Position numbers and translations under genes: made by a program
In this document: positions 40,673 to 44,133 of the stretch, piece by piece
Layout of the letters: every line of letters starts with the position of its first letter
How positions within the stretch are numbered: the stretch's first letter is position 1
The notes under the pieces: generated by a model
What the model was told of the DNA's origin: nothing
The model's input: the letters and a program-made list of their open reading frames with translations, nothing else
Database searches by the model: none
From: Limisalsivibrio acetivorans
GTDB lineage: Bacteria > Chrysiogenota > Deferribacteres > Deferribacterales > Geovibrionaceae
DNA length: 64,000 nucleotides
Direction: 5' to 3'
Assembly (NCBI RefSeq): GCF_000421105.1
Contig: NZ_ATWF01000001.1
Span: 1,871,407 to 1,935,406 of the forward strand

Positions 40673-41959
40673 TTATCCCTGAGACCTGAAAAGACCGCTG
40701 TAGGCTGATGGAAGAAAAGCTGTCTTCCCTGATATTCCGATATCTTCCAGGGAAGCAAGGTGGCTGAAGCCCATCCTCAAGCAGTCCTCTTCGGCAAAGT
40801 TGGAGTAGAGACTGACCCTGCACCCCTCATTTATACTCTTCAAGTTGAAGGCGGTCTGTCTGTTTATCTGGTATTCAATAAAAAGCGACTCAAGCATGGA
40901 CGAGGCTGAGGCGTGGTCAAAAAAGTCCTTGAAGAAGCTGTTTCCATAACCGTCCGGACACTGTGCAAAGAAGTATATATCAGCTCCATCCTTTGCCACT
41001 GCCGCCGCTTTATCAAGGGATTTCTGCGCCTGCACCATATTGATATCCTTGGGGAATCCTCCACAAGACACGATGAGTGTGTCGTATTTCTCAGGTACGG
41101 ACACAACGGCACGCTCGTCCAGCATCTCGCAAGCCTTGTGGTGGGCCATGAATAGATCGCCGCAGACCATCTCTACTATGTTTCCTGCATCATCAAGGAT
41201 AGTATTCACAGAGAAGAAGGTGTGCCCTGCCCTGCTTATCATAACGGCATCGACGATATCATCGTGGACAGGGTTGCCCCGCAGATTGCCGTTTCTACAG
41301 TCCTTATGCCTGCTTCTCGCCACAGGATCCAGAACAAGCTGGTGGTTCCTTAGGATGCTCTTCTTTGCGGCTATCCCGGGGAATATGAGCTTGCGCCCTC
41401 CGCCGTATCCGGCGAAGTAGTGGTAGCTCACGGAGCCTATGGGTATGATAAGGTCATGCTCGCGGTAGGCCTTGTTTATAAGGACTGGGGTTTTACCCTT
41501 GGATATGCCGTAGAAGTCGTTCATATCCATATCTTCACAGTCGTGGGGGAGGATGCGGTCCTTGACCTTTTCGTATATTTCAGGTGTCAGAACCCCGCTC
41601 ATCTCCTCTTCGGTCATGGGGCGGTGGGTTCCGATGGCGAAGATGAAGGAATAATCACGCCCCGCCTGCTCGAGGATACCTATCATACGCTCAATAAAGC
41701 GCTCAAGGCCGGACTTGCGGGTGACATCGGGCACTATAAACAGAGCCCTTTCGCAGGATGCGGCCATCTCCGTAAAACCTTCGGAGTAGATGCATTTCTC
41801 CATGCGCTCAATTATCCCCTCATCGCTGAGAGGCCCACCCATGGAAGAGGGTGCAAGTATATCTATCTTTTTATCAAGATTCAGGGAAAGCTTTTGCTTC
41901 CCCCAGGGGATTTCTATCCTATCCGCCGATTCCGGACATTGTGCGCTTATATCTTTCAT
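40673..41959 (-). CDS. LarA-like nickel-pincer enzyme (lactate racemase family)
   Basis: 428 residues. PDVTRK (near residue 73) and IGTHRPMTEEE match the DxTR and GxHR motifs of LarA (DUF2088). GSVSYHYFAGYGGGRKLIFPG holds the conserved His and the Lys that carries the nickel-pincer cofactor, and ILRNHQLV follows with a further metal His. The family racemises or epimerises 2-hydroxyacids; the exact substrate is not clear. The cofactor is made by LarB, LarC and LarE, none of which are in the window. The start overlaps the moaA 3' end by 41 nt, and MoaA ends in the family-typical GG, so both ends look correct. Confidence 0.82.
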   Translation of the reverse strand: MKDISAQCPESADRIEIPWGKQKLSLNLDKKIDILAPSSMGGPLSDEGIIERMEKCIYSEGFTEMAASCERALFIVPDVTRKSGLERFIERMIGILEQAGRDYSFIFAIGTHRPMTEEEMSGVLTPEIYEKVKDRILPHDCEDMDMNDFYGISKGKTPVLINKAYREHDLIIPIGSVSYHYFAGYGGGRKLIFPGIAAKKSILRNHQLVLDPVARSRHKDCRNGNLRGNPVHDDIVDAVMISRAGHTFFSVNTILDDAGNIVEMVCGDLFMAHHKACEMLDERAVVSVPEKYDTLIVSCGGFPKDINMVQAQKSLDKAAAVAKDGADIYFFAQCPDGYGNSFFKDFFDHASASSMLESLFIEYQINRQTAFNLKSINEGCRVSLYSNFAEEDCLRMGFSHLASLEDIGISGKTAFLPSAYSGLFRSQG

Positions 41960-42908
41960 TCCTCTTATCCGCCACCACGTGGTGTTCCTTTTCCTTCTTG
42001 CAGAGAGCGCCGGAGATAGCCTCTATAAGACCCTCACGGTCACGCTTTCTTATGGGTTCCTTGAGGTCGTATTCCTCCTCTGTGAGGAGGCAGGGGCGGA
42101 GCTTTCCGTCCGCTGTGAGCCTCAGTTTATCGCATTCGGAGCAGAAATGGTTCGATATGGGGGTTATGATGCCAACCCTGCCGCCGTTGGAGAGGCGGTA
42201 GTTTTTGGCGGGCCCGGCATGGTGCTCCTTCTTTATCTCTTCGTAGTCGTATTTTTCGCCGATTATCTTAAGCATTTCGCTTCCGAGGACGATATTCTCC
42301 TGCTTCCAATCTGGGGAGTTGCCGATGGGCATAAACTCTATAAAACGTGCTACAACACCGGAGCGAACGGAGAAATCGCAGAAGTCATGGATCTCATCGG
42401 CGTTAAAACCTCTAATGACAACGGTATTCGTCTTTATCGGATCAAGACCCGCCTTCTTTGCGATGTAGAGGCTCTTAAGGAGTCTGTCCAGATCAAAGCC
42501 CCCCGTTATGTCACGGTATCTTTCGGGGCGGAGGGAATCCAGACTGATGTTCACCCTTCTGATGCCAGCGGCAACTATCTCATCGGCGAACTTTTCCAGC
42601 AGGGAACCGTTTGTGGTGAGGGTAACCTCTTCGATCCCCTTTACGTCGGTAAGCATGTGCATGAAGTCGGTAACACCCTTACGTACAAGGGGCTCACCGC
42701 CGGTTACACGTATCTTCTCAACGCCCATCTCGGCAAATACACTGCAGGCGAAGAGCATATCCTCAAAGCTGAGGATACAGGAATGGGAGAGGTGCTCGAA
42801 CTCACCCTCCGGCATGCAGTATTTGCAGTGGAAGTTGCATCTGTCCGTCACGGAAACACGCAGGTAGCGTATCCTCCGGCCGAACTTGTCCGCAAGGCTT
42901 TTACTCAT
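41919..42908 (-). CDS. moaA: GTP 3',8-cyclase (molybdenum cofactor)
   Basis: 329 residues. The N-terminal radical SAM motif is CNFHCKYCMPEG; the C-terminal [4Fe-4S] cluster Cys lie in HFCSECDKLRLTADGKLRPCL. The protein ends GIGG, the Gly-Gly tail required in MoaA. It makes the cyclic pyranopterin precursor from GTP with MoaC. It overlaps tatC by 8 nt and larA by 41 nt. The Tat link is sensible, as many molybdoenzymes are Tat substrates. Confidence 0.96.
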   Translation of the reverse strand: MSKSLADKFGRRIRYLRVSVTDRCNFHCKYCMPEGEFEHLSHSCILSFEDMLFACSVFAEMGVEKIRVTGGEPLVRKGVTDFMHMLTDVKGIEEVTLTTNGSLLEKFADEIVAAGIRRVNISLDSLRPERYRDITGGFDLDRLLKSLYIAKKAGLDPIKTNTVVIRGFNADEIHDFCDFSVRSGVVARFIEFMPIGNSPDWKQENIVLGSEMLKIIGEKYDYEEIKKEHHAGPAKNYRLSNGGRVGIITPISNHFCSECDKLRLTADGKLRPCLLTEEEYDLKEPIRKRDREGLIEAISGALCKKEKEHHVVADKRNERYKRTMSGIGG

Positions 42909-43668
42909 AGATATCCTCTTCCTTTATCTCACGCTTGCGCCCGAAGATAGAGGCTATAAGAATGCTTATCTCGTAAAGGATGATAAGGGGTCCTGCCATC
43001 ATCATCTGAGTAAAAACATCGGGCGGAGTGATTATAGCCGCAACCACAAATATGCCGAAGAGGGAATAGCGCCTGTTTCTGCGCATCATATCGGCTGTGA
43101 GAAGACCCATCTTCGCAAAGAAGAATGTAAAAACGGGGAGCTCGAAAACGATGCCAAAGCCGAGGATAAGCCTTACAACGAAGCTGAGGTACCATTGTAT
43201 GGAGAGGTTTGCCGTAACATCACCCTGCGCATATGTCAGGAAGAAACGGAAACCGAAGGGGAAAACAAGGTAATAAGCAAACGCCGCACCGAGAAAGAAG
43301 AGGAGCGATGAACTGAATACAAAGCCCACCACAAACTTCTTCTCATGGACATAAAGCCCGGGAGCGATAAACTTCCACCCCTGATAGAATATAAAGGGCA
43401 TGGAGAAGAACAGCGCCGCCATGAGCGAAAGCTTAAGCTGGGTGAAGAAACCTTCTGTAAGCTTAAGCATCGACATTGTCGAAGCCTGCGGCAGCACCTC
43501 AATGAGCGGTGCAGTTACGAAGTTGAAAAAGAACTCCCTCTGCCAGTAGCAGACACAGAAGATTGCTATCAGCAGAATGAGTACATATATGATACGTTTA
43601 CGCAGTTCTTCCAGATGGTCCATCAGCGGACTTTGTGCTTCAATTCCGCTTTGCTCTGTTTTAGCCAT
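42901..43668 (-). CDS. tatC: Sec-independent protein translocase TatC
   Basis: 255 residues with six membrane segments. The N-terminus PLMDHLEELRKRIIYVLI is the TatC signature that binds the twin-Arg signal; the periplasmic loop with FVTAPLIEVLP and LPVFTFFFAKMGL are further conserved parts. It is the receptor of the Tat export complex in the inner membrane. It follows tatA by 28 nt and overlaps moaA by 8 nt. Confidence 0.97.
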   Translation of the reverse strand: MAKTEQSGIEAQSPLMDHLEELRKRIIYVLILLIAIFCVCYWQREFFFNFVTAPLIEVLPQASTMSMLKLTEGFFTQLKLSLMAALFFSMPFIFYQGWKFIAPGLYVHEKKFVVGFVFSSSLLFFLGAAFAYYLVFPFGFRFFLTYAQGDVTANLSIQWYLSFVVRLILGFGIVFELPVFTFFFAKMGLLTADMMRRNRRYSLFGIFVVAAIITPPDVFTQMMMAGPLIILYEISILIASIFGRKREIKEEDIYE

Positions 43669-43696: not shown

Positions 43697-44089
43697 TTAA
43701 TTCTGTACCTGCTGTTTTTTGCCTTCCTCTTCCTCTACGGAAGAGCTCTCCTCAGTCCTGTTCTGCTCAGCCTTGGGAGCCTCGCTCTTAGCCTCGGAGT
43801 TTTCATCCACTGGCTCTGCCTCCACCGTTTCCACGGTTTTCGCCGAAGTATCCTCACGCCTGCGGGTCTCTCTATGCTGTTCCTTGTAGCTGTCCCTGCT
43901 TACACCGCCGGAGGTCTTGGAGGGCTCGTCATCAATATTAACGGCCTCCTTGAGATCGCTCAGGGAACGCTTAAACTCCGCATATCCTTTACCGAGGGAT
44001 TTTGCAAGCTCAGGCAATTTTTTAGGACCGACAACCAGAAGACCAATAATCAATATAAGCGAAACTTCCGCCATTCCGAGTCCAAACAT
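43697..44089 (-). CDS. Twin-arginine translocase subunit TatA/TatB
   Basis: 130 residues from the ATG at 44089 (AGAGGT upstream), which gives the typical start MFGLGMAEVSLILIIGLLVVG; six upstream codons are left out. After the single helix comes GPKKLPELAKSLGKGYAEFK, the amphipathic helix with FG/GPKKLPEL hinge. A Glu at residue 8 supports TatB, while the long charged tail (~85 residues, Lys/Glu/Ser-rich) also fits TatB. The two cannot be told apart with certainty. It is the first gene of the tat-moaA-larA operon. Confidence 0.88.
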   Translation of the reverse strand: MFGLGMAEVSLILIIGLLVVGPKKLPELAKSLGKGYAEFKRSLSDLKEAVNIDDEPSKTSGGVSRDSYKEQHRETRRREDTSAKTVETVEAEPVDENSEAKSEAPKAEQNRTEESSSVEEEEGKKQQVQN

Positions 44090-44105
44090 CGCACACCTCT
44101 GTTGC

Positions 44106-44133
44106 ATAATATTTATTTGTGTACAAAAATCAA
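44106..44133 (-). promoter_or_regulatory. Putative promoter of the tat-moaA-larA operon
   Basis: On the minus strand TTGATT (44128-44133) and TATTAT (44106-44111) are spaced by 16 nt, just upstream of the tatA ribosome site. The gap to the divergent radC gene is short, so the promoters for both directions must lie here. Confidence 0.5.

Follow-up and report, generated by a model that had tools for sequence, protein, structure and literature searches.

A probable 2-hydroxyglutarate racemase gene that starts inside moaA in Limisalsivibrio acetivorans, and a related family that keeps the gene in its place without the active site

Why should a gene for a LarA-like nickel-pincer enzyme begin inside moaA, at the end of an operon for Tat export and molybdenum cofactor synthesis, and which reaction would its product catalyze? 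The question arises from a stretch of 64,000 nucleotides (the window) of the L. acetivorans genome (2.97 Mb in 3 contigs), in which four genes on the minus strand follow one another: tatA (43697-44107), tatC (42901-43668), moaA, encoding GTP 3',8-cyclase (41919-42908), and a larA-family gene of 428 amino acids with an ATG start (40673-41959), which probably encodes a 2-hydroxyglutarate racemase (Hgr) according to its Pfam domains, a residue check, a tree, and a structure model with fold search. There is a gap of 28 nt between tatA and tatC, while tatC and moaA overlap by 8 nt, and the end of moaA and the start of larA overlap by 41 nt (41919-41959, minus strand), a segment that encodes the N-terminal 13-14 amino acids of LarA. 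MoaA and TatC were identified by NCBIfam models (TIGR02666, 363.5 bits, cut-off 284; TIGR00945, 230 bits, cut-off 133) and TatA by Pfam (TatA_B_E, PF02416, 49.1 bits, cut-off 21), its score of 45.0 bits with the NCBIfam model tatAE being under the cut-off of 53.9. The operon tatA-tatC-moaA-larA of the original prediction was thus confirmed, as was the start of larA 41 nt inside moaA, which follows from the ORF coordinates. Upstream of tatA lies a divergent radC, and downstream of larA a gap of 147 nt is followed by a 96-aa ORF and then by a long ORF.

A misplaced LarA start can be rejected, as the ATG within moaA is kept in 12/12 genomes of the same family despite differing moaA residues at this place (NE, DD, ND, and DE). 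The third codon base at the overlapping ATG is T, compared with 29-54% of moaA N/D codons that end in T, which is modest support, the genomes being related. Through this overlapping start, translation of larA is probably coupled to that of moaA.

The window protein was originally taken to be a LarA-family nickel-pincer enzyme, and domains, fold, tree, and active site all agree with this. It matches Pfam Lar_N at 145.0 bits (cut-off 23.3) and LarA_C at 39.8 bits (cut-off 25), its AlphaFold model has a pLDDT of 91.5 and a pTM of 0.88, and all 19 PDB chains retrieved by the fold search at E <= 0.001 are LarA-family structures. In the tree, which had been suggested as a check, it falls within the LarA family, beside homologs with the residues kept. 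According to the available text of PMC7583248, R75, K184, and H200 of LarA bind the nickel-pincer nucleotide (NPN) and D72, H108, H174, and K298 act in catalysis. In the alignment, all eight catalytic and nickel-pincer residues (D72, R75, H108, H174, K184, H200, Q295, and K298 in LarA numbering) are present in the window protein: D78, R81, H112, H180, K190, and H206 correspond to the first six and are encoded, together with the loop residues Y181-F182, within 41342-41728, and Q310 and K313 correspond to Q295 and K298 (codons within 41021-41032), all on the minus strand. The same eight residues are kept in 25/25 racemase-type orthologs of the order. The original prediction had singled out the pincer lysine in close relatives as decisive, and here the outcome is divided: the lysine is kept in all 25 of these orthologs, and it is lost in 14/14 positional homologs of another family of the order, f6, which is discussed below. 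As a separate observation, three LarA homologs (L046, L047, and L048) carry Asn where the pincer Lys would be and Leu at the position of Q295, with the remaining six residues kept.

A LarA enzyme needs its cofactor, and the original prediction was right that larB, larC, and larE are missing from the window. Their absence from the genome can be rejected, however, since the suggested genome search placed all of them outside the window: larB lies 21 kb before the window start (260 bits, cut-off 175), larC 1.8 kb past the window end (385 bits, cut-off 22), and, at a greater distance, a larE-like gene with a score (146 bits) just under the curated cut-off of 150. The LarE-like protein keeps the PP-loop, the CxxC motif, and the third Cys; PMC9283937 describes LarE with three cysteines as the [4Fe-4S] type. 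Across the loci compared (L128-L157), LarE is shorter and lower-scoring in the racemase families, and full-length and over the cut-off in families f4 and f6. A ubiD-like gene is a neighbor of larC in the window genome (G000:C1:1937178-1938290, L109) and in two f6 genomes (L122 and L117), with an endonuclease III-like gene between them in two of these three cases (names assigned by eye from the sequence).

The arrangement was compared across 45 genomes of the order (G000-G044). Racemase-type LarA was found in 25, a degenerate form in 14 (f6), and none in four (f4); in one genome (G025) the place is masked, and the remaining one, without LarA, is 57% complete. moaA lies directly upstream of the racemase-type larA in 24/24 testable cases, the contig of the 25th ending at the gene. 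The start of larA varies: in the window's family its ATG precedes the end of moaA by 38 or 41 nt (12/12), in f5 the start is probably 32-50 nt inside moaA, and in f2, f7, and f8 the start codon of larA is an ATG or TTG located at the moaA stop. In f3 (L028, L030, and L031; 3/3), the expected start near the moaA stop is without ATG, GTG, or TTG, and an ATC after a GGAGG- or GGGGG-like stretch by the moaA stop may be the larA start codon. In the masked genome (L083), 1500 consecutive N start partway through moaA and extend over the expected place of larA; tatA, tatC, and the beginning of moaA are in place. Because it is conserved across the order, the arrangement is not a matter of chance.

The original prediction knew of no link between LarA and moaA, and this did not stand. 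The available text of PMC7583248 already notes that Hgr of Deferribacter desulfuricans tends to cluster with MoaA, for which reason its role is called intriguing, and suggests a dual use of 2-hydroxyglutarate enantiomers as carbon source. Besides that paper, our literature search, which left supplementary tables aside, found none tying together Deferribacter, 2-hydroxyglutarate, and MoaA. The window gene is therefore an ordinary Hgr ortholog, as far as its residues and kinship indicate, of a known enzyme type, its link to moaA is not new, and by itself it adds one member to a known racemase group.

What the link means is a separate matter. We give about even chances to a frozen accident, in which a housekeeping racemase gene was inserted behind moaA a single time, in the order's common ancestor, and has remained there without a functional tie, an account of the link only and compatible with the Hgr identity. 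The adjacency of larA and moaA was seen only within this order; the genes before tatA and after larA vary among families, while tatC-moaA-larA is constant; and the only genome covered in the last whole-genome search outside the order (G050) has one racemase-like protein with no moaA beside it. Against an accident, the slot, in which start codon and overlap vary, survives in seven racemase families as well as in f6, where the ORF has outlived the loss of its own active site.

Regarding the reaction, we consider it highly probable that the window gene encodes an NPN-dependent cytoplasmic 2-hydroxyglutarate racemase, the ortholog of D. desulfuricans Hgr (LarAH7), because it carries the signature of 2-hydroxyglutarate racemases (HGRs) and belongs to the same order as D. 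desulfuricans. The signature, as given in the accessible text of two papers, comprises an NQT motif (PMC7583248) and the residues Y, F, H/Q, and T, the last two at positions 358-359 (PMC11770544). In the window protein, Y181 and F182 follow the second catalytic His, and N366, Q368, and T369 lie in helix 14 (codons within 40853-40864, minus strand); 25/25 racemase-type orthologs of the order have Y-F following H174 and, in helix 14, N-Q-T-A. The relative with 58% LarA identity to the window protein is a Deferribacterales MAG, and a further genome (G018, of the same genus as the masked one) has an ortholog with 51% identity behind moaA. HGR activity has been assayed for D. desulfuricans Hgr (PMC7583248) and for LarAH32 of Geobacter metallireducens (PMC11770544), according to the available text of these papers. 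Judged by the published description, D. desulfuricans Hgr shares with the window gene the order, the signature residues, and the moaA neighbor, with activity measured there only; LarAH32 has, by its description, a Q-T type active site in common with it. 2-hydroxyglutarate as the substrate is thus predicted from signature and kinship.

Alternatively, the protein might depend on NPN to racemize or epimerize a different acid (malate, an aldarate, or other), with the 2-hydroxyglutarate signature matching only approximately, which we regard as unlikely. The best NCBIfam score of the window protein is with the malate racemase family LarAH6 (275 bits, cut-off 500), its nearest solved sequence is the malate racemase Mar2, and LarAH32 also epimerizes D-arabinarate, weakly (PMC11770544, available text). 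Yet the malate racemase equivalogs NF052593 and NF052595 gave 274.9 and 231.7 bits, under their cut-offs of 500 and 462, and malate racemases are described as having K at the position of T359 (PMC11770544), where the window protein has T and the order has T preceded by Q in 25/25 orthologs. Further, no malate, aldarate, or sugar genes were recognized beside the racemase-type larA, whose constant neighbors are tat and moaA. Fold and all NPN and catalytic residues are shared with the structures of Mar2 (PDB 6d6z and 7s91) and of LarA lactate racemases (PDB 2yjg and 5huq), but identity in the structural alignments is 24-27%, and residues of the substrate loop and helix 14 differ. The LarAH10 hydroxyacid racemase equivalog (NF052525, 262.7 bits, cut-off 540) and the lactate racemase equivalog (NF033504, 227.3 bits, cut-off 460) can be set aside by their scores. 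The earlier suggestion of a 2-hydroxyacid other than lactate thus probably holds, given the low lactate racemase score (227 bits against 460) and the HGR signature.

For the racemase so predicted, a mechanism can be sketched from the family chemistry (PMC7583248, accessible text) and the kept residues, both of which lead to proton-coupled hydride transfer on NPN. LarB, LarE, and LarC would make NPN, which K190 and H206 would hold, and hydride transfer between substrate and NPN, with H112 and H180 as acid and base, would invert C2 of D- or L-2-hydroxyglutarate. As for its role, L-2-hydroxyglutarate is reported to arise from side activity of malate and lactate dehydrogenases in mammals (PMC7041631, available text). 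It is conceivable that the racemase merges L- and D-2-hydroxyglutarate, which dehydrogenases form from 2-oxoglutarate in side reactions, and that one dehydrogenase could then return both to 2-oxoglutarate. The slot behind tatC-moaA would in this case serve joint expression with the respiratory molybdoenzyme machinery and would not reflect a common pathway; nothing found here points to a pathway that the racemase shares with MoaA or Tat. This metabolite-repair role is a guess, weaker than the enzyme identity. The model NF008726 (PRK11728.1), which we take to be that of L-2-hydroxyglutarate oxidase, found no protein over its cut-off in any of the 45 genomes of the order, which fits the guess but is not proof, and the oxidase is equally missing from f6, with its racemase residues lost, and from f4, with the gene absent, so that its absence does not track the racemase.

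The degenerate family is the part worth a second look. In all 14 f6 genomes that hold the gene, an intact LarA-like ORF of 356-413 aa occupies the tatC-moaA slot, starting with an ATG 38 or 41 nt before the end of moaA, and all eight NPN and catalytic residues are lost in every one of them (0/8 kept in 14/14; L116, L121, L123, L125, L081, L038, L039, and L161-L167). Homology to the window protein is detectable in all 14 (E 8.6e-33 to 1.2e-10), two of the four f6 proteins scanned pass the Lar_N cut-off, and the four f6 sequences used in the tree fall inside the clade of the order, on long branches that leave their exact place unsure. Pairwise dN/dS is 0.10-0.29 in six f6 pairs compared with 0.05-0.09 in seven f1 pairs, ratios that are rough as dS is high in most pairs; the f6 protein is under purifying selection, less so than that of f1. 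The cofactor genes persist: of the 14 genomes, LarB is over the cut-off in 12, LarC in 13, LarE in 13, and all three in 12, and LarE keeps its three cysteines at 13/13 loci read. Some f6 proteins of about 360 aa that match Lar_N weakly are, by eye, presumably DUF362 proteins. A response-regulator gene directly follows the f6 larA-like ORF in the four regions read with long flanks, one of which was scanned.

Retention of an ORF without its active site raises a further reading, that the protein, besides or instead of catalysis, has a role in structure or regulation connected with MoaA or the operon, which would explain why ORF and overlap were kept after the residues were lost. The intact ORFs, the constrained dN/dS, and the place within the order's clade speak for this role; on the other side, the rough ratios weaken the dN/dS comparison, the f6 genes have a higher rate of evolution, as would be the case once function is lost, and f4 no longer has the gene in the slot (in 3/3 testable genomes another sequence follows moaA), so that moaA does not need larA. 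On balance we find such a role distinctly improbable. Its fullest form is similarly doubtful: LarA of the Deferribacterales in the moaA operon would have a second, non-catalytic job tied to molybdenum-cofactor or Tat genes, and f6 would be a racemase stripped to that job, a pseudoenzyme translated from inside moaA while NPN is still made for another protein.

Returning to the predicted racemase and its slot, the order offers a natural experiment, in which the published racemase-moaA link occurs with a full active site in 25 genomes and with none in 14, and is gone in f4, and the meaning of the link therefore becomes testable. What is added here is the firmness and the oddity of the moaA link, and the f6 pseudoenzyme in the coupled slot. 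That f6 keeps the gene in its slot after losing all active-site residues is new to us, and we call it so because the literature searches, which left supplementary tables aside, were empty, with no paper joining Mucispirillum and lactate racemase and none on Deferribacter, 2-hydroxyglutarate, and MoaA beyond the one cited. Orphan NPN synthesis as such is already known, since about 15% of genomes are reported to have larB, larE, and larC without larA (PMC11796402, accessible text). The f4 genomes, in 4/4 of which LarA was not found, include two with LarB, LarC, and LarE (G014 and G021) that fit this description, whereas f6 differs from it in that its original slot still holds an ORF of LarA fold, one that has lost the NPN site; with f4 and f6 there are thus further well-defined cases in which NPN is made but no NPN enzyme can be recognized. 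Elsewhere in the sample, one genome (G015; L115, 4106-6901) has, next to a gene for an altronate/galactarate dehydratase, a second LarA-like gene that is very divergent.
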